Below are positions 2,418-17,276 of a DNA stretch of 46,860 bases, piece after piece. The notes under the pieces were generated by a model. That model was not told where the DNA came from, ran no database searches, and saw only the letters and a program-made list of their open reading frames with translations. Source of the stretch: Streptomyces sp. LS1784. Its GTDB lineage: Bacteria > Actinomycetota > Actinomycetes > Streptomycetales > Streptomycetaceae. How positions within the stretch are numbered: the first letter of the stretch is position 1; each line of letters opens with the position of its first letter. The position numbers were made by a program, and so were the translations under genes. The stretch spans positions 1 to 46,860 of the forward strand of contig NZ_JAHSQD010000009.1 of NCBI RefSeq assembly GCF_020103755.1, read 5' to 3'.

Positions 2418-2435
2418 CCACCCGCGCGGGAAGCC

Positions 2436-2512
2436 GGCCCCGGCCGGCACTTCCGGTCGCCGGCGCAATGGACCTTGCTGGTCAACCCGCCCCTGGAGCG
2501 CCCGAGCAAGGC
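2436..2512 (-). pseudogene. IS5-family transposase scrap
   Basis: A short minus-strand frame reads LGRSRGGLTSKVHCAGD followed by RKCRP. This matches the conserved RSRGGLTTKIHLA.D block of IS5-type DDE transposases around the first catalytic Asp. Only about 25 residues survive, in a frame that overruns the neighbouring NmrA-like gene without matching the family further. It is a fossil fragment left by an old insertion or excision. Confidence 0.6.
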
Positions 2513-2517
2513 TTCCT

Positions 2518-2655
2518 TCAGCCAAAGCCTGCGCCGACGCCGGGTACGTCGCCGTTCTTCCCTTTCCGGGCCGCCTGAGGCGTCCCGCCCGTCTTGTTCC
2601 TCTGGGCCAAGTCCACCTCGCCGCGCTTCGCGGCTTCCGCGATCAGGCCCTCCAT
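2518..2655 (-). CDS. Small basic protein or gene tail, 45 residues
   Basis: A short ATG-initiated frame with good coding bias reads MEGLIAEAAKRGEVDLAQ and then a Lys/Arg/Gly-rich tail. Frame-compatible sequence upstream (PGSARL) suggests it may be the C-terminus of a longer lost gene. It directly abuts the IS5 scrap, consistent with truncation by the transposon. Family not recognised. Confidence 0.3.
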   Translation of the reverse strand: MEGLIAEAAKRGEVDLAQRNKTGGTPQAARKGKNGDVPGVGAGFG

Positions 2656-2689
2656 CAGGCGGGCGGAGCCGGGCGTCGTATCTGGGGCG

Positions 2690-2809
2690 GGAGAGCGCGT
2701 GCTGCTCGACGCCCTTGCCTCGCTACCTGCCGATGACCGCGACCGGTTGCTCCGGAAGGAGGCTGCACTGGTCGACTGTCTCGACAGCCGAGACCTCGGC
2801 CGGCACTGA
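2690..2809 (+). pseudogene. Coding-like remnant, about 39 residues
   Basis: The frame ends ERVLLDALASLPADDRDRL then RKEAALVDCLDSRDLGRH before TGA. It is an acidic/basic amphipathic helix with coding-type third positions. There is no plausible start close upstream. It sits among transposon scraps and is best read as a gene tail. Confidence 0.2.
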
Positions 2810-2893
2810 CCCGAGTCCCCGCCCTTCGGCCGTCGTGCTCGGCGCCATCACCGTCCCCCGATGTGTGACCCTCCACGCCACCACGACCAGCGG

Positions 2894-2995
2894 TCAGGCG
2901 GCGTGGAGGACGCGCTTGCGCAGGGCGACCTCGTCGACGCCCAGAACGCGCGGCACCGCGTGCGCCCGATCCGGCAGGGCGCGAAACCAGTTTCC
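2894..2995 (-). pseudogene. ISL3-family transposase scrap
   Basis: A minus-strand frame reads RAHAVPRVLGVDEVALRKR, which matches the PRVLGVDDFALRRG block holding the first catalytic Asp of ISL3-type transposases. The frame ends in TGA a few residues later and upstream sequence is unrelated. Only about 30 residues of the roughly 400-550 expected are left, so it is inactive. Confidence 0.55.
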
Positions 2996-3069
2996 ACTTG
3001 TCGCCGACAGTGGGCGCCCAGGAGGGCGCCGCGTCCTTCGCGGAGGACCGAGTCGGGAGGGGCGCCCCG

Positions 3070-3852
3070 TCAGGCGGGAACGTTCTTGATGACAGCGTCG
3101 GTCAGCGGCGAGAGCTGATCGGACAGCTTGTCGAGGTCTGCGGTCCGGCCGTCGGACCACTGGGCCGAACCGACGACCACGCCGTGCCCGTAGGCCGCGA
3201 AGCCCTGCACGCGGCCGCTGTCGGCCGGCAACCGGCGCAGACCCGAATCCGTGGGCGGGACATGGACGGCGACCTGGAAGGAGTCGGCGTGGGAGCCGAG
3301 AAAGCTCACCAGGTGCACGCCGTCGCCCTGGTCCGCCATGGTGAACAGCGCCACGTTGTACTGGTTGCCCTCGGCGTCCTTGTACAGCGCCAGGTCGACT
3401 CCGAGACAGCCGTGGCCCTGTGTGATCAACCCGGCGAGGGTCGGCGCCACGGTGTCCGGGCCGGTGCAGTTCGAGCGCGCCACGCCCGCCACCAGCGTGT
3501 ACCCCTGGACCTGCGCCGGAAAGACGGACAGCGGCATCGCCGAGACCGGAGCGCCGGATGCCGCCGACGAAGCACCGATCGACGGCGTCGCCACCTGCGG
3601 CGAGCGATCGGACGATGCCGGCGCAGCCAGCGCGGGCGGTGCGGCCGGTGCAGGGCTCGACGGCCGGAGCAGGTACGCCCCCGCGCCCGCTGCCACCAGC
3701 AGCGCAGCGGCCACCGAAAGCAGCAGCCGACGTCGCGCGCTTCGTCGTACGGGCCGGCGCGCCTGTTCGGCGACACTCGGCTCCCGTACCGCGTTGTTCT
3801 TCTCAAACTCCTTGACGAACTCTTCCCACAGGTCGTCACCGGATCCACGCAT
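3070..3852 (-). CDS. Membrane-anchored protein with extracytoplasmic domain, function unknown
   Basis: A 260-residue protein. It has a cytoplasmic N-terminus of about 45 residues (MRGSGDDLWEEFVKEFEKNN, then Arg-rich), one membrane segment around residues 45-67 (LLLSVAAALLVAAGAGAYLL), a Pro/Ala/Ser-rich linker of about 50 residues, and a folded extracytoplasmic domain of about 130 residues. The acidic N-terminal DDLWEEFV resembles sigma-factor-linked membrane proteins of streptomycetes, but no sigma factor lies beside it. The ATG at 3852 is chosen over a GTG five codons upstream because the family-like sequence begins there. Role unknown; secretion or stress sensing are guesses. Confidence 0.75.
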   Translation of the reverse strand: MRGSGDDLWEEFVKEFEKNNAVREPSVAEQARRPVRRSARRRLLLSVAAALLVAAGAGAYLLRPSSPAPAAPPALAAPASSDRSPQVATPSIGASSAASGAPVSAMPLSVFPAQVQGYTLVAGVARSNCTGPDTVAPTLAGLITQGHGCLGVDLALYKDAEGNQYNVALFTMADQGDGVHLVSFLGSHADSFQVAVHVPPTDSGLRRLPADSGRVQGFAAYGHGVVVGSAQWSDGRTADLDKLSDQLSPLTDAVIKNVPA

Positions 3853-4037
3853 GCTCACAGCTTCCACACCTTAATGATCACCGCCACCGCTGGGAAGCCG
3901 CGCCCCGTGCCGTCGCTGGTGCTGGTCCTGCCGAACCGGATGGTGCGTGGCTGCGCCAGGCGCAGGGCGCCAGTCTCGTTCCCACCACCGTCCAGGTCCC
4001 GGCCGGGCCGGCCCCCGCTCCGGCCGAGGCCGCGCCC

Positions 4038-4358
4038 GTGCGCGCGGCCGCCGTTGTGGAACCCGCTCAGACTCCGGTTCACGCTGCTCCGGTCGTTCCG
4101 GTGCCAGCGGCGCCGGCGGCGTTCGGCGGCTGGTGGTCTCTGACCGGATGGACCGTCAACCCTGACGTCTACCTCGTCCTCGGCGAGGGCCACCAGGTCG
4201 GCTGGGTCGAGCGCGGCCTGACCGGCATTGGCGATCAGTGGGTGGCGGTGTACGAGGGGTACGTCATCGGTGACCCGACCACCCAGGAGGCGGCCCTGCA
4301 TGACACCCCGGAGCAGGCCCCCCGGACAGTCCGGCTCGCCTATCTGCAGAACCTGTGA
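4038..4358 (+). CDS. Hypothetical protein with Pro/Ala/Val-rich N-terminal region, probably 5' truncated
   Basis: From the GTG at 4038 the frame encodes 106 residues, with a Pro/Ala/Val-rich linker followed by a compact domain containing GWWSLTGWTVNPDVYLVLGE, HQVGWVERG and QWVAVYEGYVIGD. The same frame stays open and coding-like back to about 3890 with no good start, so the original N-terminus may have been lost near the divergent gene at 3852. No family recognised. It lies upstream of the group II intron and next to another damaged gene. Confidence 0.5.
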   Translation: MRAAAVVEPAQTPVHAAPVVPVPAAPAAFGGWWSLTGWTVNPDVYLVLGEGHQVGWVERGLTGIGDQWVAVYEGYVIGDPTTQEAALHDTPEQAPRTVRLAYLQNL

Positions 4359-4372
4359 CCGGCGGGACCCGG

Positions 4373-4575
4373 CTACGACGGCAGGCCGTCGGCGTCGGCC
4401 CGGAGTTCGGCGTAGGCGTTCAGGCGTTCGTCGTCCTCCGGCCGCGATAGCCGTTGTCGCTCGGTCAGCCGGCCGCTTCGACGTACGACGCCAGATTGGC
4501 CAGCGAGGAGGCGATCCCAGCCTCGTGGATCGCTTGGTCGACAAAGATCAAGCGTACGTCCAGCAGCTCGGGCAT
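4373..4575 (-). pseudogene. Small helical protein gene split by a frameshift
   Basis: An ATG at 4575 begins MPELLDVRLIFVDQAIHEAG, then SLANLASYVEAAG, stopping at 4465. A second frame takes over immediately with LTERQRLSRPEDDERLNAY then AELRADADGLPS to a stop at 4373. The two pieces look like one protein of about 67 residues broken by one frameshift near 4467. The family is unknown. It ends about 30 bp from the group II intron boundary, so it may represent flanking exon sequence. Confidence 0.35.
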
Positions 4576-4604
4576 CGTCCCAGTTCAGAGGAGGTGGAGA
4601 GGAT

Positions 4605-5222
4605 GTAACCGGGCGTCAAGCTCAGGGCAGCCAGCCGGTGTGAGTCCGGTCCGGGGAGACGCCAGGGTCCTCGGTAGCTGACTCCCGGCGTTCGTCGAGA
4701 GGCGGGCGTCGAAGTGGAGTGACAAGCGTCCTTCGGGGGCGTGCGACCGGCCAGTCCGCAACATGAAGTGAAGCCTGCAGCGTCGTGATTTAAGCCCGTC
4801 GAGAGGCGGGGCCAAGGAGGAGCCGAGCCTGTGCTTGAAGGGCGAAGGCCATGGAAGGCGTCCCAGATCCTGGAGCGGGCGCTCAAGAACCTCCCGGCGT
4901 AAGGGGCGTGGAATGGTCGGAGGGTTGTCCTGGGAACTGGAGAGGGCCTCCTCCGCCCCGGGTATTGCGGACCGGGAGTGTGGCTCGCCTATAACCGGCG
5001 GAACCGGGAAGTGGCGGGCTGCCGAGAGGCGGCCGGAGGGGGTCGTAGTAGTGCCGATCGGCGGGACAACACAACCCGTCAGGAGCGAAGGGCCCCTGCT
5101 TCATCGATGCGTGACACGAACAAGGAGGGGCCCGGGTGAGTGCCGGAATGGCTGTGTCCGCCCGCCGGGAGGACACATGCCGCGGTGAGCGGCGTCCTCT
5201 GGACAAGGTCCGAGCCTTGCAC
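4605..5222 (+). ncRNA. 5' half of a chloroplast-like group II intron (domains I to IV)
   Basis: About 600 bp without an ordinary gene show features typical of a CL-class bacterial group II intron: a run of short self-complementary stems (CGTTCGTCGAGAGGCGGGCG around 4690-4709; CCTTCGGGGGCGTGCGACC around 4731), and the segment leading into domain IV (TCAGGAGCGAAGGGCCCC around 5080). It ends in the N-terminus of an intron-encoded reverse transcriptase. The 5' boundary is placed near 4605 but is uncertain because no clean GUGYG start is seen there. The matching 3' half lies at 12648-14025 on the same strand. Confidence 0.65.
5136..5222 (+). pseudogene. N-terminal fragment of group II intron reverse transcriptase
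   Basis: The frame opens at a GTG and ends GERRPLDKVRALH, the conserved start of CL group II intron maturases, which normally continue with TLYRCAKQ-type sequence. Here it changes abruptly after the His codon into unrelated sequence. The missing continuation (QWTLYRCAKQEPERRFHALY) is found at 12648 in the same frame and orientation. The break is therefore an insertion and not simple decay. Confidence 0.7.
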
Positions 5223-5242
5223 AGTTATCTGCACCATCTCTG

Positions 5243-5279
5243 CTCGTTGATCTCAGTGACGGTCCCCGAGATCAACGAG
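5243..5279. repeat. Perfect 12-bp inverted repeat upstream of the first recombinase
   Basis: CTCGTTGATCTC at 5243-5254 and GAGATCAACGAG at 5268-5279 are exact reverse complements separated by 13 bp. The repeat ends 11 bp before the recombinase GTG and about 20 bp inside the left end of the element. It could be an operator, a recombinase binding site or a structure that limits read-in translation. Confidence 0.85.
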
Positions 5280-5290
5280 GAGAGTGAAAA

Positions 5291-6486
5291 GTGGATCTTC
5301 GACACGAACTCATGGAGGGGCGGGCGGATATCCCCCGTGTCGGGGCGGTGTTCCCGGCTCGGGGCGTCCATCCTCCGTACGTCGTCGTCAACGGGTACGA
5401 CGACGAGATCGAGCCGATCACCGCGTACCTGCGTGACTTGGCGTTGAACGACAGCAGTCCGCTGACGGTCCGCAGTTACGGGTATGGGCTGCTGCGCTGG
5501 TTCCGGCTGCTGTGGCTTCTCGGGGTGGTCTGGGAAAGGCGACCGAGGCGGAGACGGCGGTGTTGGCCGGGTGGCTGCGGACGGCGTCGAACCCGCAGCG
5601 CCAGCGCAAGACGGTCACCAACCCGGTGCCGGGCTCGGTGAACCTGCGGACGGGCAAGCCGGTGCTGAGGGCTGGGTACGCGCCGCGGACGATCAACCAT
5701 GCGCTGTCGGTGGTGAGCGGGTTCTACGAGTTCCACGCCCACCAGGGCAACGGGCCGGTCACCAACCCGGTGCCGGTCTCTCCGCAGCGACGCCGGGCGC
5801 TGGCCCACCGCAGCCCGCTGGAGCCCAAGCCGGTGCTGGGCCGGGCCCGGCTGAGGCAGAAGGTCCCCGACCGTCCGCCGCGGTCGATCCCGGACCGTCT
5901 GTGGGATGAGCTGTTCGAGCGGATGGGGTGCCAGCGTGACCGCGCCCTGCTGGAGTTCTACGTCTCCAGCGGCGCCCGCGCCGAGGAACTCCTGGGTATC
6001 GGCATCGGGGACGTCGACTGGTCGGGCCAGGGGATCTATGTGATCTCCAAAGGGACGCGAGAGAGGCAGGCAGTTCCGGCCTCGCCGCAGGCGTTCCTGC
6101 GCCTGGCCTGCTACCTCGACGAGATCGGCACCGCGGCGGCGGACGAGCCGCTGTGGCGGACCCGTCGCGGCGCGGACCGGCCCATGTCCTACTGGGCGAT
6201 GCGGCGGGTCATCCAGCGGGCCAACGAGGCACCGGGCACCAACTGGACCCTGCACGACCTGCGGCACACCGCGGCGAGCCGGATGGCGAACGGCGGCAAG
6301 CTGACCCTGCCGGAGGTGCAGGCGGTCTTGCGTCACGCCAACATCCAGACCACCAGCCGCTATCTCGCGGTACGGGTCGAGGAGATCTTCGACAAGCTCA
6401 CCGAGCACTACAACTCCCCGCGTGTTGAACGTAGTTACCCGTCCGGCTACAACGCCGACGACATCGCGGCGGTGTTCGGTGCCTGA
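5291..6486 (+). pseudogene. Tyrosine recombinase, TnpA-like (Tn554 type), with one frameshift
   Basis: It begins at a GTG at 5291 with a GGAG ribosome site 9 nt upstream. The first frame gives the N-terminal SAM-like domain (ITAYLRDLALNDSSPLTVRS, then YGYGLLRWFRLLWLLGVVW). The second frame, from about 5530, gives ATEAETAVLAGWLRTASNPQ and the catalytic domain: Arg in GARAEELL, HxxR in LHDLRHTAAS, His in LRHANIQTT, and the nucleophile Tyr in SRYLAVR. One extra A in the GGGAAAGG at about 5529-5536 would restore a single frame of 398 codons. All catalytic residues are present, so without the frameshift this would be a normal recombinase. It lies directly upstream of the larger partner. Confidence 0.8.
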
Positions 6487-6648
6487 GACGCAGCTTCGCA
6501 CCACCGGTCAAAGCCGCCGCCACGGTCCAGTCGTGGAGGGGCTCCAGTTCGCCAGCCGTTTCGTCGGGGGCCGATCACGCCGGAGCCTGCCGTTGCGGCC
6601 AGCCTGCCCCGGCCCCACGGCGAGTTCGCCACCGCTTCGGTCTCGCTG

Positions 6649-8931
6649 TTGTCGCAGGTGGCCGGCTCCTCCTCGATCTGGCCCGGCACACAGCGCGCAA
6701 CCCGCCTGAACTGGAAGAATTCAACCCGCGCGCTGCTCGAATACCTCCTCACCTTCCCAGGGGAGACATGGCAGGTGAGATGGGACGCCAGTCCGCTCGG
6801 CCAGGGCCAGATCGCCGCCGATGAGGTGGGGTCCCGTCGGACAACGGGCACCAGCGTCATCCCCGGAGTCCGAGCTCTGTACTGCCTGCGCGTCATCCAG
6901 CCGACGCCACTCGCCTTCCGGCGTAACCCTCTGCCCAACTACGGGGTGATGTTCATCGCCGCTCAGGAGGACCCGCTCCTGGACAAGTACGTGGCGGAGG
7001 TACGCGCCCACCAGTTCCGCCAAGTGCACCGCCGCGACGCGATCAACGAGTTGTGCATGCTGCTGACCGTCCAGGGCGTCACCCTGAGCGATGTCACTCC
7101 CGCCGCGTTGCTGCACTTCACCCACGAGAATCGGCAGGCACGTTGCATCCTGCAACCGGGCAGCCAGGTGTCCAACCGGCTGATCGGCCGAGGCGTCTGG
7201 AACGTTCTGCATTCCATGGGGCACTTCCCGCCGTCCACACCGGAGAGCATGCGGGCCGCCCTGCTGCGTGGACAGCTCAGCGTCGAGGAACTCGTCGACC
7301 AGTACGAGATCACCAACCAGGCCGTTCGCGGACTGCTCATCGACTACCTCACCCGACGCAAGGCCGACACCGACTACTCCACCCTGAAGGACCTCGCCTG
7401 CAAGCTCACCCGCCACTTCTGGAAGAACATCGAGAGGATCAACCCCGACCAGGAGGAACTGCGCATCTCACCGGAGACCTACGCGACCTGGCGCCAGGCG
7501 ATCACCGTCAAGGACGACGGCAAACCCCGCGTCGGCCAGGACAGCATCGTCATCGCGCTCCGCTCCTTCTACTACGACCTACACACCTGGGCCGCCGACG
7601 AACCTGAGCGCTGGGCGGCATGGGTCGCACCCTGTCCGGTCCCGCCCAGCGAACTACGCGGGCTCGGGGTTCGTCGCCGGCGCATCAACGAACGCTCCGC
7701 CGACCGCACCCGCCAGCGTCAGCCCCTCCTTCCCCTGCTGGTGAACCACGTCGAAACCCGCTACGACCGCGCCCGCCTGCTCCTGGAGCAGGCCGACAAG
7801 TCGGCCGAAGGGGAGGTGTTCACTCACGAGGGGAGCGAGTACCGGCGGATCCGCACCGAAGCCGACCGCAAGTTCCTTCGCCATGGAGATGCCGTCCCCA
7901 CCCGCGTCCAGGAAGTCGACAGCGGTCGGATCGTCCACATCGGCACCGAGGAAGAAGGCGCCTTCTGGGAATGGGCGGCCGTCGAGACCCTGCGCCATTC
8001 CGGCGTGCGCATCGAGGAGCTCTGTGAACTGACCCACCTGAGCATTCGCCAGTACCAGCGGGCGAACGGCGAGGTCATCGCGCTGCTGGTGATCGCGCCA
8101 TCGAAGACTGACCGCGAGCGTGTCATCCCGATGTCCGCCGAGCTCTTCCACGTCATCGCCTCGATCATCCGCCGTCACACCCGCACCGGCCGTCCGATCC
8201 CTCTCGTCAGCCGGTTCGACTATCACGACAAGGTGTGGAGTCCCCCGATGCCGTTCCTCTTCCAGCGGCAGAACGGCACTACCCCCATGGTGTTCAGCAC
8301 CGCGACCATCCAGGTCATGCTCGGCCGGATCTGCGAGCAACTGGCCAAGAATCACCGGGAGTTCCGCGGGCTGAAGTTCACCCCGCACGACTTCCGAAGG
8401 ATCTTCGCCACCGAGCTGGTCAACAGCGGCCTGCCCATCCACATCGGCGCGGCTTTGCTCGGCCATCTTGACGTCCAGACCACCCGTGGCTACGTCGCGG
8501 TCTTCGACGAGGACATCGTCCGCCACTACCAGGAGTTTCTCCACCACCGCCGTGAGGTCCGGCCGGAGGGTGAGTACCGCGACACGACGGAGCGGGAATG
8601 GGAGGAGTTCGAGGAGCATTTCGACCGCCGCAAGGTCGAGCTTGGCTCCTGCGGACGCCCCTACGGCACCCCCTGCCAGCACGAACACGCCTGCATCCGC
8701 TGCCCGATGCTCCACATCAACCCGAAGATGCTTGGCCGCCTCGAAGAACTCGAAACCGACCTCCTCGCCCGCCTACGGCGGGCCCAGGACGAGAACTGGC
8801 TCGGCGAGGTCGAAGGCATCAACCTCACGCTCACCTTCCTGCGCGCCAAGCGCGAGGAAACGCAACGCCGAACCCGACGCCCCGCCGTCGACCTCGGCAT
8901 CCCGACAGCCCGAAGGAAGGAGGACCACTGA
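6649..8931 (+). CDS. Large tyrosine recombinase, TnpB-like (Tn554 type)
   Basis: A 760-residue protein with a long N-terminal DNA-binding region and a C-terminal tyrosine recombinase fold. Catalytic residues visible are Arg in RHSGVRIEELCEL, Lys in IAPSKTDRERVIPM, HxxR in FTPHDFRRIFATEL, His in LLGHLDVQTT and the nucleophile Tyr in RGYVAVF. A Cys/His cluster follows (SCGRPYGTPCQHEHACIRCP), seen in long recombinases of this type. Start choice is weak: TTG at 6649 opens this frame, but a GTG at 6479 overlapping the stop of the upstream recombinase begins a family-like N-terminus (PETQLRTTGQSRRHGP) in another frame. The true gene may therefore start at 6479 and be frameshifted near 6590. It presumably acts with the upstream recombinase to move the element. 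Confidence 0.85.
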   Translation: MSQVAGSSSIWPGTQRATRLNWKNSTRALLEYLLTFPGETWQVRWDASPLGQGQIAADEVGSRRTTGTSVIPGVRALYCLRVIQPTPLAFRRNPLPNYGVMFIAAQEDPLLDKYVAEVRAHQFRQVHRRDAINELCMLLTVQGVTLSDVTPAALLHFTHENRQARCILQPGSQVSNRLIGRGVWNVLHSMGHFPPSTPESMRAALLRGQLSVEELVDQYEITNQAVRGLLIDYLTRRKADTDYSTLKDLACKLTRHFWKNIERINPDQEELRISPETYATWRQAITVKDDGKPRVGQDSIVIALRSFYYDLHTWAADEPERWAAWVAPCPVPPSELRGLGVRRRRINERSADRTRQRQPLLPLLVNHVETRYDRARLLLEQADKSAEGEVFTHEGSEYRRIRTEADRKFLRHGDAVPTRVQEVDSGRIVHIGTEEEGAFWEWAAVETLRHSGVRIEELCELTHLSIRQYQRANGEVIALLVIAPSKTDRERVIPMSAELFHVIASIIRRHTRTGRPIPLVSRFDYHDKVWSPPMPFLFQRQNGTTPMVFSTATIQVMLGRICEQLAKNHREFRGLKFTPHDFRRIFATELVNSGLPIHIGAALLGHLDVQTTRGYVAVFDEDIVRHYQEFLHHRREVRPEGEYRDTTEREWEEFEEHFDRRKVELGSCGRPYGTPCQHEHACIRCPMLHINPKMLGRLEELETDLLARLRRAQDENWLGEVEGINLTLTFLRAKREETQRRTRRPAVDLGIPTARRKEDH

Positions 8932-8941
8932 CGGACAGCAG

Positions 8942-9046
8942 CTATCCACGCCGGGCGATCGTGATGATCTCCCGGCTGGAAGCAGTGATCGGCTCCCGGT
9001 TCCAGTCGCCGTACTGCGCCTCGACCTCAAACCCCGCATCAGCCAG
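8942..9046 (-). pseudogene. C-terminal scrap of a SAM-dependent methyltransferase
   Basis: The minus-strand frame reads FLADAGFEVEAQYGDWNREP then ITASSREIITIARRG before a stop. This is the closing strand pair of many class I methyltransferases (LLADAGFTVEARYGDWDRSP...EIVTVARR). Sequence upstream of about 9046 is unrelated, so only about 35 residues survive. It abuts a Tn3 transposase tail running the other way. Confidence 0.55.
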
Positions 9047-9199
9047 GAACCTGCCGAGCGCCGGCTCTCCCCGCTCAAGGACCGGCACATCAACTTCCTG
9101 GGCCGCTACCTGTTCAACATCACCGCCAGCGGCCCCGGCCAGGGCCTGCGGCCCTTCCGCGACCCCGACGCCGCCGAGGACGACGAGGAAGAGGACTGA
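9044..9199 (+). pseudogene. C-terminal scrap of a Tn3-family transposase
   Basis: The frame reads RRLSPLKDRHINFLGRYLF, then GQGLRPFRDPDAAEDDEEED and TGA. LSPL..+HIN.LGRY followed by GLRPLRDPD and an acidic tail is the usual C-terminus of Tn3-type transposases of actinomycetes. About 50 of roughly 1000 residues remain. It begins at the point where the methyltransferase fragment breaks off, marking a Tn3 end or a deletion junction near 9045. Confidence 0.6.
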
Positions 9200-9358
9200 C
9201 CGCCGGCGCACCCGGGACGTTAGGCCGTTCGTTGTACCTCGTGCCGGCCGGGCGGCACCGCCTGTGTATCCAGCGCAGGAAGAGAACGCTGATCTCCGAA
9301 AACCTTGGACTCGCCGACCGATTGTGGCCCACCAGCCGGTGAGTCGAGAGCATGGGAC

Positions 9359-10243
9359 TCAGCGGACCAGCAGGTCCTGGATGGCCGCCGCGATCTCGTC
9401 GGGTGCCTCCTCGGCCATGAAGTGGCCTGCTCGGGTCAGCCGGTGGTCCAGGTCCGGCGCCCACGCCTTCCACACCGCGGCAGCGTCGTAGCCCAGCTGT
9501 GCGCCCCAGTCCTGCTGGATGACCGTCACGGGCATGGCCAGCTGCGACCCGGCGTCCAGGTCCGCCTGGTCGTGCGTGACGTCGATGCCCGCCGAGGCCC
9601 GGTAGTCCGCAACGATGGACGTCACTGCCGCGGCGCTCGCGCTCAGGTATTCGGCACGCACGTCTTCGGGCATGGTTGTCGGGTCGTTGGCCCAGGCGTT
9701 GAGGAACGAGCCGAAGAACGCGTCCGCACTGCCTGCGATCATCGCCTCCGGCAGGCCCGGCGGCTGCGCCATCAGGAAGAGGTGGTAGCCGACCGCCGCC
9801 GAGGCGCCGCGCAGGACGTTCCACATGTCGAGCGTCGGCACGATGTCGAGGATGCCCAGGTGCGTGATGGTCTCGGGGTGGTCCAACCCCGCCCGGAAGG
9901 CGACCAGGGCGCCCCGGTCGTGGCCGACGAGGGCGAAGCGCTCGTGGCCGAGGGCCGCCGCCAGGGTCACGACGTCGGCGGCCATGGTGCGCTTGGCGTA
10001 CACATCGGGGCCGGTGGCCGCCGGCTTGTCGCTGGCGCCGTAGCCCCGCAGGTCAGGACAGATCACCGTGTGCTCGTCGGCGAGCCGCTCGGCGACGTGC
10101 CGCCACATCAGGTGGGTCTGCGGGAAGCCGTGCAACAGCACGACCGGACTGCCGCTGCCGCTACCGCCGACAGCGGCGGCCAGCTCCACACCGTCCGCGC
10201 CGGGCAGGCGGACGTGGTCGAAGCCGGGAATCGTGGGGGTCAT
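9359..10243 (-). CDS. Alpha/beta hydrolase, epoxide hydrolase / haloacid dehalogenase-like
   Basis: A complete 294-residue protein. It shows the oxyanion-hole motif LLHGFPQTHLMW, the DLRGYGASDKP strand-loop, and the nucleophile elbow VGHDRGALVA with Asp109 as nucleophile, as in fluoroacetate dehalogenases and epoxide hydrolases (serine hydrolases would have Ser there). The catalytic His lies near the end in RAGHFMAEEAP. A cap domain occupies roughly residues 130-215. No signal peptide, so it is cytoplasmic. It hydrolyses C-halogen or epoxide bonds via an ester intermediate; substrate unknown. It is divergent from a SARP regulator, with SARP-like repeats between them, suggesting that regulator controls it. 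It appears to be cargo of the transposon. Confidence 0.92.
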   Translation of the reverse strand: MTPTIPGFDHVRLPGADGVELAAAVGGSGSGSPVVLLHGFPQTHLMWRHVAERLADEHTVICPDLRGYGASDKPAATGPDVYAKRTMAADVVTLAAALGHERFALVGHDRGALVAFRAGLDHPETITHLGILDIVPTLDMWNVLRGASAAVGYHLFLMAQPPGLPEAMIAGSADAFFGSFLNAWANDPTTMPEDVRAEYLSASAAAVTSIVADYRASAGIDVTHDQADLDAGSQLAMPVTVIQQDWGAQLGYDAAAVWKAWAPDLDHRLTRAGHFMAEEAPDEIAAAIQDLLVR

Positions 10244-10354
10244 GGAAGGCCGTCCTTTCGGGTCGGGGACCGATCGGATCAGCCTGAGCGACGGCGATCA
10301 GCAGCCGATCAGTACGGCTGGGCGCAGCCCGCCCCCGTCACAGACACTGGGCGC
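10244..10354. promoter_or_regulatory. Divergent control region with SARP-type heptamer repeats
   Basis: The heptamer GATCAGC/T occurs three times on the plus strand, at 10277-10283, 10296-10302 and 10307-10313. The last two are separated by 4 bp, an 11-bp period, which is the classical spacing of direct heptamers bound by SARP regulators. The region lies between a hydrolase and a SARP gene. No clear -10 box can be tied to either direction. Confidence 0.55.
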
Positions 10355-12292
10355 ATGCGAATCGACGTGCTCGGTGCTGTGCGGGCCCTCCGCGACGACG
10401 GCAGCCCGGTCGACCTGGGCGGACCCCGTCATCGCGAGGTACTCGCCCGGCTCGTCGCCGCCGAGGGGCGGATGGTCACCACCGACACCCTGGTCGACGA
10501 CCTGTGGACCGATCCGCCGGTCCGCGCCGTGGGCGCTCTGCGTACGTTCGTCGCCGCGCTGCGCCGCGCCCTCGAACCCGAACGGCCGCCCCGCGATCCG
10601 CCGCGTGTCATCGTCACCGAAGGTCCCGGCTACGCACTGCGCCTGCCGCGTGATGAGGTGGACGTCCACCGGTTCCAGGACACCCTGGCCCGTGCCCGGC
10701 GCCACCCCGACGCGGTGACCGACCTCGGCGCGGCACTCGCGGCCTGGCGCGGACCCGCGTACGCCGATGTGCCCGGCTCCGCATGGGCGCAGCGCGAGCG
10801 GATCCGGCTGGAGGAACTGCGGTTGGAGGGCGTGGAGTTGCGTGCCCGCCTCCTCCTCGGCTCCGGGGAAGGGGCCGATCTCGTCGCCGGGCTGGGTGCT
10901 CATGTCGCCGACCATCCGTGGCGCGAGCCGGCCTGGGGGCTGCTCGCCCGCGCGCAGTACCATGCGGGCCGCCGGGCCGACGCGCTGGCCACCCTCCGCC
11001 GCGCCCGCGCGATGCTCGTCGACCAACTCGGACTGGACCCCGGTGCCGACCTGCAACGCCTGGAGATGGAGATCCTCGGCGGGTCCGTGCCGCTCGAAGG
11101 CGCACGTACTGCGTGGGCCGGCCCTGGTGTCCGGCTCGGTCCGCGCACCACCGTGGATCTGGCCCGCACCCTCGCCCTGGCGGGTGGCGACGCCCTCGTC
11201 CACTCGCGGCGCGACCGTCTCGCCGCCGTCCAGGCCGCGGAACGCACAGGAGACCTCTCCCTGACCGCGCGGATCATCGGTGCCTACGACGTGCCCGCCC
11301 TCTGGAGCCGGGCCGACGACCCCGAACAGTCCCGCGCCGTCGTCGCGGCCGCCGAGCGCACCATCACCGCGCTCGGCCCCGACGGCCCCGCCGACCTCTC
11401 CGCCCGCCTGCTGGCCACGATCGCCGTCGAGAGCCGCAGCGCCGATCTGTCCGGGACCGAGCCGGGGCGCGCGCGGCAGGCGGCGCGGCGGGCCGAGGCG
11501 CTGGCACGGGACCTGGCCGATCCCGCCCTGCTCGCCTTCGCCCTCAACGGGGTGTTCCTGCAGTCCTTCACCCGCCCCGGGCTCGCGGCGGTACGGGACA
11601 GGACCGGCGCCGAGATCCTCGACCTGGCCACCCGGCACGCGTTGCCGAACTTCGCCGTACTCGGCCGGCTCATCCGCCTGCAGTCCGCCTCCGCCCTCGG
11701 CGACCTCGACACCGCAACCTCCCACGCCGAGGCCGCCGAACAGCTCGCCGCCACCATCGAGGCGCCCCTCGTCCCCGTCCTCACCGGGTGGTTCCGGGCC
11801 CGGGTCACAGCCGCCCGCAGCACCGAACCCGGCGGACCGACCGCCGCCACGGCCGCGGCGCACTACCGCGCTGCCGAGAACGCCCTCCGGACTGCCGGAA
11901 TGCCCGGGCTGCACCGCGGCCTCTTCCCGCTCGCCCTGCTGGGGCTGCGCCTGCTGCACGACCGGCCCGCGCCCACCGACCCGCACCTCGACTGGGGTCC
12001 GTACCGGCCTTGGGCACGACCCCTCGTACTGCTCGCCCAGGACCGGACCGAGGAGGCCCGTGCCGCCCTCGCCACGGTGCCCGAACCACCGCGTGACCAC
12101 ATGCAGGAGGCCATGTGGTGCCTGACCGTCCGCGCCGCCGTACGCCTCGGCGCGCCCGGAATCGCCGCACGCGCCCAGGCTGCCCTGCGCGATGCCTGTG
12201 CCGAACACGCCGGCGCCACCAGCGGAATGGTGACCCTGGGCCCGGTGGCACGGTATCTGGCAGAGGCGGAGGCATGCGCCGGAGCGGGGTAA
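10355..12292 (+). CDS. SARP/AfsR-type transcriptional regulator with BTAD domain
   Basis: A 645-residue regulator. Residues 1-95 form an OmpR-like winged helix (MRIDVLGAVRALRDDGSPVD ... VIVTEGPGYALRL). Residues about 100-245 form the bacterial transcriptional activator domain (RFQDTLARARR, ALAAWRGPAYADV, YHAGRRADALATLRRAR, LGLDPGADLQRLEMEIL). The remaining 400 residues are helical and TPR-like; no Walker A P-loop is visible, so it lacks the NB-ARC ATPase of AfsR. The ATG at 10355 places the winged helix at the N-terminus as in the family. It likely binds the heptamer repeats just upstream and activates the divergent hydrolase and possibly itself. No biosynthetic cluster is adjacent. Confidence 0.9.
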   Translation: MRIDVLGAVRALRDDGSPVDLGGPRHREVLARLVAAEGRMVTTDTLVDDLWTDPPVRAVGALRTFVAALRRALEPERPPRDPPRVIVTEGPGYALRLPRDEVDVHRFQDTLARARRHPDAVTDLGAALAAWRGPAYADVPGSAWAQRERIRLEELRLEGVELRARLLLGSGEGADLVAGLGAHVADHPWREPAWGLLARAQYHAGRRADALATLRRARAMLVDQLGLDPGADLQRLEMEILGGSVPLEGARTAWAGPGVRLGPRTTVDLARTLALAGGDALVHSRRDRLAAVQAAERTGDLSLTARIIGAYDVPALWSRADDPEQSRAVVAAAERTITALGPDGPADLSARLLATIAVESRSADLSGTEPGRARQAARRAEALARDLADPALLAFALNGVFLQSFTRPGLAAVRDRTGAEILDLATRHALPNFAVLGRLIRLQSASALGDLDTATSHAEAAEQLAATIEAPLVPVLTGWFRARVTAARSTEPGGPTAATAAAHYRAAENALRTAGMPGLHRGLFPLALLGLRLLHDRPAPTDPHLDWGPYRPWARPLVLLAQDRTEEARAALATVPEPPRDHMQEAMWCLTVRAAVRLGAPGIAARAQAALRDACAEHAGATSGMVTLGPVARYLAEAEACAGAG

Positions 12293-12316
12293 GCGACCCC
12301 GGAACGGAGACGACCA

Positions 12317-12466
12317 GTGATCCCCATGCCGCCCCACCGTTGGAAGGACCCCGGTGTCCTCGGCGCCACCGGACCCGGAGAACACGGACCCTTCGGCCGC
12401 TGGCCCAAACCCGAAGCAGGCGAGACTGCACCCGAGCCCAGCACGCCCGAGCCCCGGCAGGAGTAG
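12317..12466 (+). CDS. Small Pro/Gly/Glu-rich protein, 49 residues
   Basis: A GTG at 12317 with GGAG 8 nt upstream opens a frame reading MPPHRWKDPGVLGATGPGEH then GPFGRWPKPE and a Glu/Pro tail. Coding bias is good. It follows the SARP gene by 24 bp and may be cotranscribed. No family recognised and no membrane segment. It is the last gene before the right end of the inserted element. Confidence 0.35.
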   Translation: MIPMPPHRWKDPGVLGATGPGEHGPFGRWPKPEAGETAPEPSTPEPRQE

Positions 12467-12647
12467 GGGAATCACAGCAAGATCAATCTCACCGGGATTT
12501 CCTGTACCTCAACTATTCACACCCGTAATCACGCAGTGCGGCGTGAGTTCGGTGCCACCTGGCACACTCCCCAGCCCCCTCATCAACGGAGCATCCCCTG
12601 CCCAACCACATACCCTTCCTCACCCTTTCGAGTGAAGTGCAGAGAAG
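12467..12647. other. Right end of the Tn554-like element
   Basis: No gene. This segment is less GC-rich than its surroundings (12480-12530 includes CTCAACTATTCACACC) and ends at the junction with the interrupted reverse transcriptase. GTGCAGA at 12637-12643 is the inverted counterpart of TCTGCAC near the left end. An in-frame stop (TGA at 12633) shows the reverse transcriptase frame does not continue through it. Confidence 0.5.
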
Positions 12648-13925
12648 CAGTGGACGCTCTACCGCTGTGCCAAGCAAGAACCCGAGCGCCGGTTCCATGC
12701 CCTGTATGGCCACGTCCTCCGCATGGACGTCTTGTGGCGGGCATGGTCCAGCGTGAGCACGAACCGGGGCGCCCCCGGGGTGGACGGCGTGAGCGTCGAC
12801 CAGGTGGCGGCCTCGGGGGTGGATGAGTTCCTCCAGGACCTGTCGGATCGACTGCGGACGCATACGTATCGTCCGTCGGTGCTGCGGCGGGTCCAGATCC
12901 CGAAACCGGGGCGGCCGGGGGAGTTGCGGCCGCTGTCGATCCCCACTGCGGCCGACCGGGTGGTGATGACGGCCGCGAAACTGGTCCTCGAACCGGTCTT
13001 CGAGGCCCGGTTCACCGAGGCGAGCTACGGTTTCCGGCCCAAGCGGTCCGCGATCGACGCGTGTGAGGCTGTGCGCGTCGCGGCGAACCAGGGACGGGAG
13101 TGGGTGTTCGAGGCCGATATCCGGGACTGCTTCGGGACGATCGGACATGATGCCCTTGTCGCTCAGGTGGAGCGGCGCGTGGCGGACCGGTCGATGCTGA
13201 AACTGATCCGGGCATGGCTGCGGATGGGAGTACTGGAGGGCGGGGTGACCTCCCCGACTGGGGCGGGAACCCCGCAGGGCTCACCGATCTCCCCGCTGCT
13301 GGCCAACATCGCCTTGCACGTCCTCGACGAGGCGTGGCAGGACGAGGGACGCCGGCTGGGGGTGCTGGTGCGCCACTGCGATGACTTCGTGGTCCTGTCG
13401 CCGACCAGACAGCGCGCCGAACAGGCGCGCGAGCTGGCCGCGCGGGTGCTGGGCAGACTCGGGATGCGGCTGCATCCGGAGAAGTCCGGCATCGTCTGCC
13501 TCACGCGGGGCGGGCAGGGTTTCGAGTTCCTCGGATTCCACCACCGGAAGGTGGAGTCGTGGAGATGGCGGGGCAGGTTCTACCTGCAACGCTGGCCCCC
13601 GCCACGGGCGTTGGGGGTTCTGCGGGACAAGATTCGCGCGGCCACCTCAAGGTCCCGGAGCGAGCGGCCGGTGGCCGCTGTGGTCGCCGATCTCAACCCG
13701 GTCCTGCGGGGCTGGGCAGCGTACTTCCGAAACGGCAACAGCGGGCGGAAGTTCAATGAGGTCGACGGCTATGTCCACGAGCGGCTGGCGATCTTCGCCA
13801 GCCGGAAACACGGCCTGCGGGGCCGGAACTGGACCAGCCGTTTCACCTACGGGTGGATCAGTCGGCTCGGGGTCTACCGCCTGACCGGGAACGTGCGCTG
13901 GGCGACGGCGCATGCCAGCTGGTGA
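12648..13925 (+). pseudogene. Group II intron reverse transcriptase/maturase, N-terminus displaced
   Basis: From QWTLYRCAKQEPERRFHALY (12648) the frame runs through all RT blocks: DVLWRAWSSVSTNRGAPGVD, RVQIPKPGRPGELRPLSIPT, SYGFRPKRSAIDACEAV, EADIRDCFGTI, AGTPQGSPISPLLANIALH, the catalytic motif RHCDDFVVL and LHPEKSGIV. The maturase domain X follows (DLNPVLRGWAAYFRNGN). There is no HNH endonuclease domain. The YADD motif is HCDD here, keeping both Asp but replacing the Tyr. The first internal ATG is at 12723, but the true N-terminus is 7.4 kb upstream at 5136-5222. Without it the protein cannot be made normally, so the intron is unlikely to be mobile. Confidence 0.88.
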
Positions 13926-14025
13926 ACGATGTCGGAAAGCCGTGTGCGGGAGAACCGCATGCACGGTTCGAAGCGGCGGGGACTGGAAACGGAGCATCAG
14001 CCACCGCGCCAGTCCCCGACCCTAC
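13926..14025 (+). ncRNA. Group II intron domains V and VI
   Basis: Domain V lies at 13937-13969: AAGCCGTGTGCGG, loop GAGAA, CCGCATGCACGGTTC. This is a 33-nt hairpin with the catalytic AGC triad and the two-nucleotide bulge. Domain VI follows, with a perfect stem GGGGACTGG (13978-13986) / CCAGTCCCC (14009-14017). The 3' splice end is placed at CCTAC, about 14025, ending in the expected AY. It follows the maturase stop by 11 nt, the normal layout. Confidence 0.8.
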
Positions 14026-14145
14026 TCAGTGGCTCAGCGCTCCTGACCCAGCTCGGATTCGGTCAACGCGCCGAGTTTTACCGGGACGTGACACGATGCC
14101 TGCTTGGGCCGGTCGTTCCGGCGTCCGCCGGTAGGGTCGCCGATT

Positions 14146-15201
14146 ATGAGGATTCTGGTCACCGGCGGTGCCGGGTTCATTGGGTCGGCGGTCGTACTGG
14201 CCCTAGCGACGGCGGGCCACGAGGTCCGCGTTCTGGACGCACTGCTGCCCGCCGTCCACCCCTCCGGAGTGATGCCCAGCCTGCCGGACGACGTGGAGCT
14301 GCGGCACGGCGACGTGCGGGATGCGGTGGTGGTTGAGCAGGCACTGGCCGGTGTGGACGCGGTCTGCCACCAGGCGGCGATGGTGGGCCTGGGGCTGGAC
14401 CTCGACGACGCGCCCGCCTATGCCGGCTGCAACGACCTCGGCACAGCGGTCCTGCTCTCCGCGATGGCGCGTTCGCACGTGCGGGACCTGGTGCTCGCCG
14501 GGTCCATGGTGGTCTACGGGGAGGGCCGGTACCGGTGTCCGGTGCACGGGGACGTCTCGCCCGGTCCGCGGCATCCGGACAACCTGGACGCCGGCCTGTT
14601 CGAGCCGCCGTGCCCGCGGTGCGGCGCTGAACTGAGCCCCGGGCTGGTGGCAGAAGACGCCCCGGTCGACCCGCGCAACGTGTACGCGGCCACCAAGCTG
14701 GCCCAGGAGCACCTGGCCTCCGCCTGGGCCCGCGCCTGCGGGGGACGCGTACTGACGCTCCGTTACCACAACGTCTACGGGCCGGGCATGCCACGCGACA
14801 CGCCGTACGCTGGGGTCGCTTCCCTGTTCCGCTCGGCCCTGGCCCGAGGCAAGGCACCGCGGGTGTTCGAGGACGGCGGTCAGCGCCGGGACTTCGTCCA
14901 CGTCCAGGACGTGGCCGATGCCAACGTCGCCGCGCTCGCTGCCGTTGGCGGCCGGCCCCCAGGCAGCGCCCGGGCGTACAACGTGGGCAGCGGCGAGGTC
15001 CGGACGATCGGCGAGATGGCCTCGGCGCTCGCCGCTGCCCACGGGGGGCCGATGCCGGTAGTGACGGGCGAGTACCGGCTCGGCGACGTCCGGCACATCA
15101 CCGCGGACTCCTCGCGGCTGCTTGCGGAACTCGCTTGGCGGGCCCGGGTGGCCTTCACGGACGGCATGAGGGAGTTCGCGGCGGCACCGCAACGTGCCTG
15201 A
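14146..15201 (+). CDS. NAD-dependent nucleotide-sugar epimerase/dehydratase (extended SDR)
   Basis: A 351-residue extended SDR. It has the NAD loop LVTGGAGFIGSAV at the N-terminus and the YxxxK pair in NVYAATKLAQEH, with the upstream Ser in LAGSMVVYGEG. Substrate-side blocks are LRYHNVYGPGMPRDTPYAG, GGQRRDFVHVQDVADAN and YNVGSGEVRTIGEMA. An insertion carries four possible metal ligands (RCPVHGD and EPPCPRCGAEL), as in dTDP-rhamnose 4-epimerase-like proteins. It likely interconverts a nucleotide sugar for the glycosyltransferases further along (15936, 17971). The ATG at 14146 puts the Rossmann loop at the usual position. The exact sugar is not readable. Confidence 0.9.
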   Translation: MRILVTGGAGFIGSAVVLALATAGHEVRVLDALLPAVHPSGVMPSLPDDVELRHGDVRDAVVVEQALAGVDAVCHQAAMVGLGLDLDDAPAYAGCNDLGTAVLLSAMARSHVRDLVLAGSMVVYGEGRYRCPVHGDVSPGPRHPDNLDAGLFEPPCPRCGAELSPGLVAEDAPVDPRNVYAATKLAQEHLASAWARACGGRVLTLRYHNVYGPGMPRDTPYAGVASLFRSALARGKAPRVFEDGGQRRDFVHVQDVADANVAALAAVGGRPPGSARAYNVGSGEVRTIGEMASALAAAHGGPMPVVTGEYRLGDVRHITADSSRLLAELAWRARVAFTDGMREFAAAPQRA

Positions 15202-15203
15202 CG

Positions 15204-15765
15204 TCAGCTTCGGGCAGCGGGAAGGACGATCTCGAAGCAGCAGCCCCCGGCGGTGTTGTGCACCCGGGCCCGACCGGCATGGGCCTCGACGATGCCGCGG
15301 ACGATGGAGAGCCCAAGTCCGGCACCGCCCCCGCCCGGTTCCTGGGGGCTTCCGGGGTCGGCCGGGCGAGGAGTGCGGGCGGTGCTGCCACGCCACCCCG
15401 TCTCGAACGCCCGAGGCAGGTCCTGTTCCGGGATGCCGCCGCAGCCGTCGGTGACCGAGAGCACCAGCTCGTCCCCCCTTGGCGGTGAGCATGACGACCG
15501 GCAGGTCGGCACCGCCCTCGGCGGGCCGCAGCCTGCGCAGGATCTCCAGGCCGTCGATCCCGGGGAGCATGAGGTCCGGAACCAGCAGGTCCGGGCGGTG
15601 GGCGGGGGCCAGGGCGAACCCCTGCGGGCCGTCGGCGGCCCGGTCGACGCGGTGACCCGCCCGAGTGAGGTAGCCGGCCACGACCTCGGCCACGGTCGGG
15701 TCGTCACCGATCACCAGGACGCGGCAGGACGACGGTGATCCCCCTGTGGTGGGGCGGTCGTTCAC
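15204..15765 (-). pseudogene. Collapsed two-component system: receiver fused to histidine-kinase ATPase tail
   Basis: From a GTG at 15765 one frame encodes a response-regulator receiver (CRVLVIGDDPTVAEVVAGYL, phospho-acceptor Asp in DLLVPDLMLPG, Lys in VVMLTAKG). At about 15485 it shifts to another frame that encodes the end of a histidine-kinase ATPase (VTDGCGGIPEQDLPRAFETG, GGGGAGLGLSIVRGIVEAHA, then CCFEIVLP). The regulator's DNA-binding domain and the kinase's sensor, HisKA and N box are missing. A deletion has thus joined two adjacent genes, out of frame. Neither protein can function. Its site between sugar genes suggests a lost local regulator. Confidence 0.75.
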
Positions 15766-15935
15766 CTTGCCGAGGATACGACCCCCCGGCCACGGCGGGG
15801 TCGCCCACCGGGACCGGCGTCCGCGTTCCGTGAGATCCCCGAGATCCCCCGAACGGGCCCCGCCGGACAGACGTGGCACTTCCACAAGGGCGCGGTTCGG
15901 TCCCGACGGGACCGCCCGCGGTTAGCGTGACCGGC

Positions 15936-17276
15936 GTGACTTCTCCCCTCCCTCCCCCACCGGTCGCCGATGTGGTCCTGCCCTGCCTGGACGAATCCGG
16001 GGCCCTGCCGTGGGTGCTCGGACGCATCCCTCCCGGCTGGCGGGCGATCGTCGTGGACAACGGCTCCCGGGACGGCTCCGCCGAGCTCGCCCGCTCCCTC
16101 GGCGCGACCGTGGTCGAGGAACCGAGGCGCGGCTTTGGCGCCGCCTGCCACACCGGGCTGCGCGCCGCCACCGCCGACCTGGTCTGCTTCCTCGACTGCG
16201 ACGGCTCGCTCGATCCCGCCCAACTCCCCCGGGTCGTCGCACCGGTGCTGGACGGTGCGGCCGACCTGGTGCTCGGCCGCCGCCGGCCGGCCACCGCCGG
16301 TGCCTGGCCGGTGCACGCCCGCCTCGCCAACGCCGTCCTCGCCCGACGGCTGCGGGCCCGCACCGGCGCCCCGCTGCACGACCTCGGTCCGATGCGGGCC
16401 GCCCGCCGGGAGCAGCTGCTGGCCCTGGGCCTCGGCGACCGACGCTCCGGCTACCCGCTGGAGATGGTCCTCGCAGCCTCGGCCGCCGGGCTGCGGATCG
16501 CCGAGACCCCCGTCGACTACCTGCCACGCGCGGGCCGGTCCAAGGTCACCGGCACCGTGCGCGGCACCCGCCAGGCCGTTCGCGACATGCGGGTGGTGCT
16601 GGCGGCACCGCCTCCCACGCTGCTGGTGATCGCCAAGGCGCCCGTCCCCGGCCGGGTGAAGACCCGCCTCACTCCGCCCTGCACCCCACCCCAAGCAGCA
16701 GCCCTCGCTGAGGCCGCGCTCGCCGACACCCTGCACACCCTGGCCACGATGCCCGCCGGACGTCGCCTGCTGGTCCTGGACGGCGAACCCGGCGGCTGGC
16801 TACCAGCGGGCTGGGAGGTCGTCCCGCAGCGCGGCGGCGGCCTGGACCGACGGCTGGCCGGCGCCTTCGCGCACGCGGCCCGGCTGGCCCCGGAGGCGCC
16901 CGCGCTGCTGGTCGGCATGGACACCCCGCAGCTGGACGCCGCCACACTGGCCGAGCCGCTGTCCGCCACCCGGCGACCGGGCGTGGACGCCTGGTACGGC
17001 CCGGCGACTGACGGCGGGTTCTGGGCGCTGGGCCTGGCCCGGCCGACCGCGCAGCTGGCCGCCGAGCTCCTGCACGACGTGCCGATGTCCACCCCGGGCA
17101 CGGGCGCGACGCTCCTGCGCCGCATGGCGCAAGCCCGCCTGACCGTCCATCATCTGCCCGTACTGACGGACGTGGACACCGTCGACGACGCCTGGCAGGT
17201 GGCCGCCGAGGCACCGGGAACCCGCTTCGCCGCCCGGCTGCGAACTGTCAAGGCGGCTCCGGAGGTGGCGAGTTGA
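15936..17276 (+). CDS. Bifunctional glycosyltransferase: GT2 domain fused to DUF2064 (GT-A-like) domain
   Basis: About 446 residues. Residues 10-220 are a GT2 family transferase (DVVLPCLDESGALPWVL, AIVVDNGSRDGSAELA, acidic motif CFLDCDGSLD, and SGYPLEMVLAASAAGLRIAE), of the polyprenyl-phosphate type. Residues 230-430 are a DUF2064/TIGR04282 nucleotidyl- or glycosyltransferase-like domain (LLVIAKAPVPGRVKTRL, GMDTPQLDAATL, YGPATDGGFWALGLA, MSTPGTGATLLRRMAQ). GTG at 15936 is chosen; another in-frame GTG lies at 15927 and neither has a strong ribosome site. It overlaps the next gene by 4 bp, implying translational coupling. No membrane segment is seen, so it acts at the cytoplasmic face. Donor and acceptor unknown. 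Confidence 0.88.
   Translation: MTSPLPPPPVADVVLPCLDESGALPWVLGRIPPGWRAIVVDNGSRDGSAELARSLGATVVEEPRRGFGAACHTGLRAATADLVCFLDCDGSLDPAQLPRVVAPVLDGAADLVLGRRRPATAGAWPVHARLANAVLARRLRARTGAPLHDLGPMRAARREQLLALGLGDRRSGYPLEMVLAASAAGLRIAETPVDYLPRAGRSKVTGTVRGTRQAVRDMRVVLAAPPPTLLVIAKAPVPGRVKTRLTPPCTPPQAAALAEAALADTLHTLATMPAGRRLLVLDGEPGGWLPAGWEVVPQRGGGLDRRLAGAFAHAARLAPEAPALLVGMDTPQLDAATLAEPLSATRRPGVDAWYGPATDGGFWALGLARPTAQLAAELLHDVPMSTPGTGATLLRRMAQARLTVHHLPVLTDVDTVDDAWQVAAEAPGTRFAARLRTVKAAPEVAS

Follow-up and report, generated by a model that had tools for sequence, protein, structure and literature searches.

SARPs are usually known from antibiotic clusters. At the promoters they activate, the 3′ repeat of the binding site lies 8 bp from the −10 element and the repeats are 11 or 22 bp apart, a rule set out in the available part of PMC10936776; there, the AfsR box at afsS is centred at −29.5, and the NOD and TPR parts of AfsR are described as inhibiting its SARP part. 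Such spacing rules are not universal; the SARP-LAL PimR has its binding site well upstream of the −35 region, as stated in the accessible portion of PMC3367932.

The locus considered here lies on a contig of 46,860 nucleotides from Streptomyces sp. LS1784, which is analysed in full and called the window; it is an entire contig of a fragmented 9.56-Mb genome. A gene for a SARP and a divergent gene for an alpha/beta hydrolase are separated in it by a short gap with direct repeats. The observations as a whole are best explained if this gap contains a promoter from which the divergent hydrolase gene is transcribed under activation by the SARP, within a mobile two-gene cassette, a reading which is argued from sequence and to which we assign a probability of roughly 0.85. 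It would mean that a two-gene package, a detoxification-type enzyme together with the gene of its likely activator, has been disseminated among soil actinomycetes, the DNA switch in the intervening gap being conserved. Among the matches listed by a literature search, judged by title and the start of the abstract, no paper described this hydrolase-SARP pair or its box.

The intergenic gap and conservation of its repeats

The gap between the two start codons extends over positions 10244–10354 (111 bp) and contains GATCAG at 10277, 10296 and 10307. A pair of heptamers with an 11-bp period, GATCAGC-N4-GATCAGT at 10296–10313, had been predicted from the letters of the window and is present there. 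The heptamer common to both copies is CGATCAG, which reads CTGATCG on the minus strand; the predicted SARP box, delimited by sequence and conservation, is CTGATCG-N4-CTGATCG on that strand (10295–10312, with heptads at 10306–10312 and 10295–10301). The third GATCAGC at 10277, mentioned along with the pair in the original prediction, is real but lies 19 bp from the next repeat, outside an 11- or 22-bp phase. It overlaps the hydrolase −10 hexamer discussed below, and its place carries GATCAGC exactly in 33 of the 92 loci compared and GAYCAGC in 44; it may be a weak extra half-site outside the 11-bp array.

The loci for this comparison came from a scan of 84,980 species genomes, a method that finds close relatives only, and the best 80 of 121 relatives were kept; with the window and 23 loci of the genus, 104 loci were examined. 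The divergent pair is present in 100 of them, the other four being L184, where the two genes stand in tandem, L187, at a contig end, and L188 and L041, where the SARP start is missing (taken as one contig). Eight records (L124, L129, L130, L134, L143, L174, L179, L183) that duplicate loci of the genus, as judged by contigs of the same length, were dropped, which leaves 92 distinct loci; they are mutually related, and counts over them are not independent. The distant L050–L055 are included in the 92-locus counts and omitted from the column table and the gap scan, which cover 86 loci. A thinned set of 24 loci was also used, in which all pairs of SARP genes are below 85% identity.

The arrangement predicted for the window, with the box between the SARP gene and the divergent hydrolase gene, recurs in 92 of 92 distinct loci. 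Scored against the 13 fixed positions of GATCAGC-N4-GATCAG, the box matches fully in 74 loci, with one mismatch in 16 and with two mismatches in the other two. The heptamers are therefore kept at no fewer than 11 of 13 positions in every one of these orthologous pairs, from which their absence had been named beforehand as evidence against the site; in the thinned set, at least 12 positions are kept in 22 of 24 loci. An ordinary short tandem duplication, or chance, might have left such repeats behind with no function: a 6-mer repeat at period 11 arises in 159 of 5000 dinucleotide shuffles of the 111-bp gap, the 46.9-kb window holds 34 such repeats, similar arrays occur away from the pair in genus genomes, and taken by itself the repeat in the window is mildly unusual and weak evidence. 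The repeat is judged not to be a chance product because it is conserved across orthologous loci, window statistics alone being too weak; over the 92 loci the mean information is 1.79 bits per base within the box and falls to 0.44 and 0.66 bits in the outer portions of the gap, which makes a functionless origin highly improbable.

Within the genus, the hydrolase was found at E 1e-60 or better in 23 of 70 genomes, and in all 23 the SARP gene, or its start, stands divergently beside it; G008 has a strong match to the first 91 SARP residues only, and the SARP gene of G045 is cut off by the end of its contig. One genome (G029) encodes the SARP from residue 74 onward with no hydrolase, and L187 has a SARP gene with no box in the preceding 107 bp, which run to the contig end. 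A second contig of the genome under study, C485, repeats 14.8 kb of the window (1565–16371) at 99.97% and then repeats 5.2 kb of it again, beginning within the SARP gene (C485 was compared from 15116 on); this copy is probably an assembly redundancy or artefact and was excluded as an independent site. The exact GATCAGC-N4-GATCAG occurs in this genome only in the 111-bp gap and in the near-identical C485.

That the regulated unit is one hydrolase, as originally proposed, agrees with the sites read in this genome, among which no second target was found: none of the nine sites with two mismatches has a −10 element (0/9), and all nine lie in open frames of at least 115 aa. At up to three mismatches the genome has 181 places, of which these nine were read, against 52 for a reversed control. 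Across the genus, GATCAGC-N3-S-GATCAG occurs in 47 of 70 genomes, more than carry the pair, with one match in all for the reversed control; the excess of box-like sites may reflect other targets or a compositional cause. Ten of the 40 loci L058–L097 encode the pair or part of it, and all ten are orthologs of the window pair; four of the non-orthologous arrays (L079, L081, L088 and L095) were inspected and appear to be situated at ORF ends or close to them. Further GATCAGC-N4 arrays in genus genomes, with three or four units each, were seen at G037:C32:1098, G048:C1:1063589, G015:C2:6512886 and G027:C13:17122.

At the gene pair itself, L121, L116, L132, L049 and L057 have enlarged box arrays, with additional 11-bp units or whole blocks. 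L116 and L132 have gained one 11-bp unit with a heptad that differs at a single base, and in L049 and L057 there is an entire second box, so that the array grows in whole units; it is possible that the number of SARP sites tunes expression.

Assignment of the box to a promoter

On the hydrolase side, 91 of 92 loci have a hexamer of the form xAxxxT at a distance of exactly 8 bp from the box, compared with a background of 307 among 12592 hexamers (2.4%); in L161 the A is missing. In the gap scan of 86 loci it is found at gap 8 in 85, at no other gap from 0 to 21, and in at most five loci at gaps 22–24; in the thinned set it is found at gap 8 in 24 of 24. The hexamer of the window, CAGGCT on the minus strand (10281–10286), is a putative −10 element of the hydrolase promoter. 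It is a poor one, of the CANGCT type, its first base being C or G in 92 of 92 loci. The −10 element was assigned from conservation, and the distance of 8 bp refers to the heptad frame CTGATCG, the unit repeated in both copies, while the frame GCTGATC would give 9 bp. In the former frame, the 8-bp spacing and the 11-bp repeats match the SARP rule as given in the available part of PMC10936776. If the hexamer is taken to occupy −12 to −7, the midpoint of the two heptads falls at −29.5 on the hydrolase side and near −21 on the side of the SARP gene, the register being good to about ±2 bp.

The same spacing is found on plasmids, for which there are 15 records; 11 regions were examined, the remaining four being further records of three species already covered. 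Eight regions came from matches to the hydrolase protein and three (L190–L192) from a DNA search that included the gap, and the protein search retrieves these three too. An adjacent divergent SARP gene and xAxxxT at gap 8 are present in 11 of 11 regions, and the best box within 420 bp matches at 13 of 13 positions in four regions, at 12 in four, at 11 in two and at nine in one (L200, where this is the best window in 420 bp). The encoded hydrolases are 69–95% and the SARPs 47–90% identical to the proteins of the window. Two of the regions (L191, L194) place the cassette on the megaplasmids of Streptomyces clavuligerus ATCC 27064 and Streptantibioticus cattleyicolor; in the PLSDB table, which is incomplete, no gene is entered at its place in either.

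The box is also upstream of the SARP gene, and it might serve that gene itself by positive autoregulation, the hydrolase being a mere neighbour. TACGGT or TACGCT follows directly after the box toward the SARP gene in 39 of 92 loci and TANNNT is found on this side in 41; the window, with the weak candidate TACGGC abutting the box (10313–10318, plus strand), does not fit. Yet the only frequent −10-like hexamer on this side touches the box (gap −1, xAxxxT in 45 of 86 loci), and xAxxxT is found at gap 8 in none of 86 loci and at gap 9 in one; moreover, the A and T of the −10 element are far better conserved on the hydrolase side. The rearranged L184 also speaks against autoregulation, which on this evidence we consider improbable. 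Its hydrolase and SARP genes are in tandem, and the turned hydrolase gene is preceded by a degenerate box, CTGATCC-4 bp-CTCATTC, with 8 bp to CACCGT, while the SARP gene is preceded only by a single GATCAG half-site; the second unit of this box keeps 4 of 7 bases. The tandem arrangement is a ready-made test case for the promoter assignment. A hairpin-like inverted repeat was seen by eye between the hydrolase and SARP genes of L184 (4880–6010).

Divergent shared operators are common for repressors. The SARP could accordingly repress both genes from the shared box until an inducer releases it, and the position of the box against the SARP-side −10 candidate would suit such an arrangement. However, the spacing to the hydrolase −10 element equals that of SARP activators in the available part of PMC10936776, and a −10 element as poor as that of the hydrolase in all 92 loci is expected for an activator-dependent promoter; joint repression thus appears quite unlikely. 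As judged from sequence comparison, the box is most likely the SARP-activated promoter of the hydrolase gene, because the conserved box is joined by the gap-8 hexamer toward the hydrolase, because the plasmid regions agree, and because of the turned hydrolase gene of L184.

The two proteins and a proposed mechanism

The hydrolase gene (9359–10243, minus strand) encodes 294 aa with the predicted nucleophile D109, an assignment based on a Pfam match to Abhydrolase_1 (E 9.3e-26), on PDB matches and on residues kept in the 92 orthologs. The best PDB matches span E 5e-60 to 3e-53, and most of them carry the name fluoroacetate dehalogenase or probable epoxide hydrolase; among solved structures, the closest are those of the Alr0039 protein (3qyj), of probable epoxide hydrolases (4bat) and of fluoroacetate dehalogenases. 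With fluoroacetate dehalogenase (PDB 3r3u) it shares the fold, and the Asp nucleophile, the following Arg (R110, equivalent to Arg111), the acid Asp (D133) and the pocket His (H154) are kept in 92 of 92 orthologs, as is F40; the catalytic His (H274) is kept in 90 and the Tyr (Y214) in 85. In contrast to that enzyme, the equivalents of Arg114 and Trp156, located by structure-relative alignments, are Leu in 91 and 92 of the 92 orthologs, respectively; both residues are named among those important for defluorination in the available part of PMC5485738. The label “dehalogenase-like” given to the protein beforehand therefore holds for fold and catalytic residues but not for these two positions. Because they are replaced by Leu, the hydrolase should be regarded as a member of this fold class and should not be filed as a fluoroacetate dehalogenase.

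The regulator gene (10355–12292, plus strand) encodes 645 aa. Both hallmarks of SARPs are found: Trans_reg_C and BTAD (E 3.7e-35) match above the Pfam cut-off, with the fold of AfsR and EmbR, which gives the OmpR-type winged helix and the BTAD; and the heptameric direct repeats have one of the two spacings of 11 or 22 bp, as seen from sequence and conservation. The AlphaFold model (mean pLDDT 84.8, pTM 0.61) consists of a SARP domain at about residues 1–249 and an all-helical, TPR-like domain at about residues 258–645. The best fold matches of the SARP domain are AfsR (Z 24.4, 41% identity over 239 aligned residues) and EmbR (Z 24.2), those of the helical half APPBP2 (Z 18.3), the Rap/AimR peptide receptors (Z about 17–18) and MalT domain III (Z 15.2). 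Such Z values are common for helical repeats, and from these matches the C-terminal half of the model is called TPR-like and nothing more specific.

A search of the 645-aa regulator gave no Pfam match to NB-ARC at E 0.001. The class of medium or large SARPs, which combine a SARP with an NB-ARC part and may or may not have TPR, was considered for this regulator and does not fit it, given the missing NB-ARC match and a C-terminal half that models as a TPR-like superhelix.

In the mechanism we propose, two protomers of the adjacent SARP would occupy CTGATCG-N4-CTGATCG next to each other and keep RNA polymerase at the poor −10 element, as AfsR does at afsS. The TPR-like domain probably senses a ligand or partner and would restrain the SARP domain until this arrives; sensing by this half is a natural guess in view of the inhibitory NOD and TPR parts of AfsR (available part of PMC10936776). 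The box abuts the SARP-gene −10 candidate, so that bound SARP may limit its own synthesis; such autorepression is only faintly suggested, because the SARP-side element fits TANNNT in under half of the loci and not in the window. The hydrolase would probably open or hydrolyse small electrophiles, for example an epoxide, an ester or a haloalkane, which would amount to induced detoxification. The two genes travel jointly between actinomycetes as a cassette of about 3 kb.

A more specific version is tentative and rather doubtful as a whole: the pair may be a self-contained mobile SARP switch. Its SARP, fused directly to a TPR sensor of the Rap/AimR kind and lacking a NOD, would detect a small molecule or peptide of foreign origin and induce the one hydrolase that destroys it. 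If true, a type of regulator known from antibiotic production would here be part of a transferable chemical-defence module outside any cluster. The locus is in any case a minimal, naturally replicated SARP system, with one regulator, one box and one evident target in about 100 sequenced variants, a rearranged one included; SARP spacing rules, SARP-TPR sensing with no NOD and the question of the inducer become directly testable in it.

Mobility of the cassette and comparison with known systems

The portability proposed for the hydrolase-SARP unit is borne out by its surroundings: the 90 loci with usable flanks fall into 63 flank groups, loci being grouped if they share at least 800 bp of same-side flank, a number that short flanks may inflate. 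At the nucleotide level, the window resembles the genus loci over about 9355–12301 and no farther, and closer named relatives share from nothing to some 1.7 kb beyond the cassette. On a SARP tree (one FastTree run), the row nearest to the window is L116, labelled Streptomyces and 94% identical in nucleotides, and not a genus mate; the genus loci need at least nine changes on this tree and the three Streptosporangiaceae rows three. Host labels change 15 times, compared with a mean of 31.2 in shuffles, and are thus more clustered than these; the pattern fits repeated horizontal transfer on top of inheritance within groups. L112 (labelled Microtetraspora) and L111 (labelled Streptomyces colonosanans) match at 97% beyond the cassette.

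To the left of the cassette lies a tyrosine-recombinase pair which we take to be Tn554-like, TnpA (5512–6486) and TnpB (6649–8931), both on the plus strand and both with Pfam matches to Phage_integrase. The original prediction placed the cassette inside this element. Two scraps at 8938–9199, however, separate the end of TnpB from the hydrolase gene, and a Tn3-type repeat lies beyond the SARP gene; this speaks against carriage, and the pair is better seen as a neighbour of the cassette. Ends of the Tn554-like element were not found. The first scrap (8938–9063, minus strand), with no database match, is in our reading the C-terminus of a methyltransferase; it corresponds to a conserved stretch of about 100–125 bp that occurs, separated from the rest, in many genus genomes. 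The second (9061–9199, plus strand) is the C-terminal remnant of a Tn3-family transposase, matching positions 952–987 of 990 of phrog_7951 (E 8e-4) and, at 85% over 41 aa, Tn3 TnpA of L111; it has no Pfam match of its own. Short TnpB-like pieces lie to the left of two other cassettes, in L162 at the hydrolase end (52% over 87 aa) and in L113 at a distance of 2.2 kb.

The Tn3-type terminal inverted repeat (12484–12509, plus strand; 0 mismatches, and 0 in 100 shuffles) sits about 190 bp past the SARP stop codon; only this right copy was found in the window, and no left one. Shortly past it, at 12723–13925, a group II intron reverse transcriptase (TIGR04416) was noted, and a group-II-D1D4-4 RNA match lies at 4632–4766, upstream of the recombinases. 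The region is, as far as its sequence tells, a mosaic of mobile pieces. In relatives, the element found repeatedly beside the cassette is Tn3. A Tn3 transposase piece in the same orientation lies within 400 bp to the left of the hydrolase stop codon in 8 of 92 loci (L110, L111, L112, L119, L120, L128, L171 and the window), from two transposase lineages about 52% identical; farther pieces lie 3 kb to the left in L123 and 0.3–0.5 kb to the right in L139. The end repeat of the window is the right-hand copy of one that in L111 forms an inverted pair of 39 nt (92%) around tnpA and the cassette; the transposase there is in two frames and the outermost bases of the repeat differ, so that no intact element is seen.

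Like passenger genes of the Tn3 family, the cassette lies just beyond the C-terminus of TnpA, with a far-side end repeat in the window and in L111. Unlike such passengers, it has the Tn3 piece in those eight loci only and a match to this end repeat in 4 of 92, and the element of the window is a remnant that lacks its left end. Tn3 accounts for only part of the spread of the cassette.

With AfsR at afsS of Streptomyces coelicolor, the window shares the SARP fold, two 11-bp direct repeats upstream of a poor −10 element, and the position of the box, whose centre is near −29.5 in both cases (for the window to within about 2 bp either way; for afsS as given in the available part of PMC10936776). 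It differs in that its SARP of 645 aa has no NB-ARC or NOD match, in the heptad CTGATCG, and in that the pair is mobile and has one hydrolase gene, in place of afsS, as the only target found. The cluster-situated SARPs, be they small, medium, large or SARP-LAL, likewise have an OmpR-type DNA-binding domain with a BTAD and heptameric direct repeats, as described in the available part of PMC10972967, and a SARP joined to TPR with no NB-ARC is absent among the architectures described in that part. In contrast to them, the window pair is tied to no single neighbourhood, and the number of flank groups speaks against a fixed secondary-metabolite cluster; the comparison suggests that SARP control is here passed on horizontally together with a single enzyme, and not as part of a cluster.
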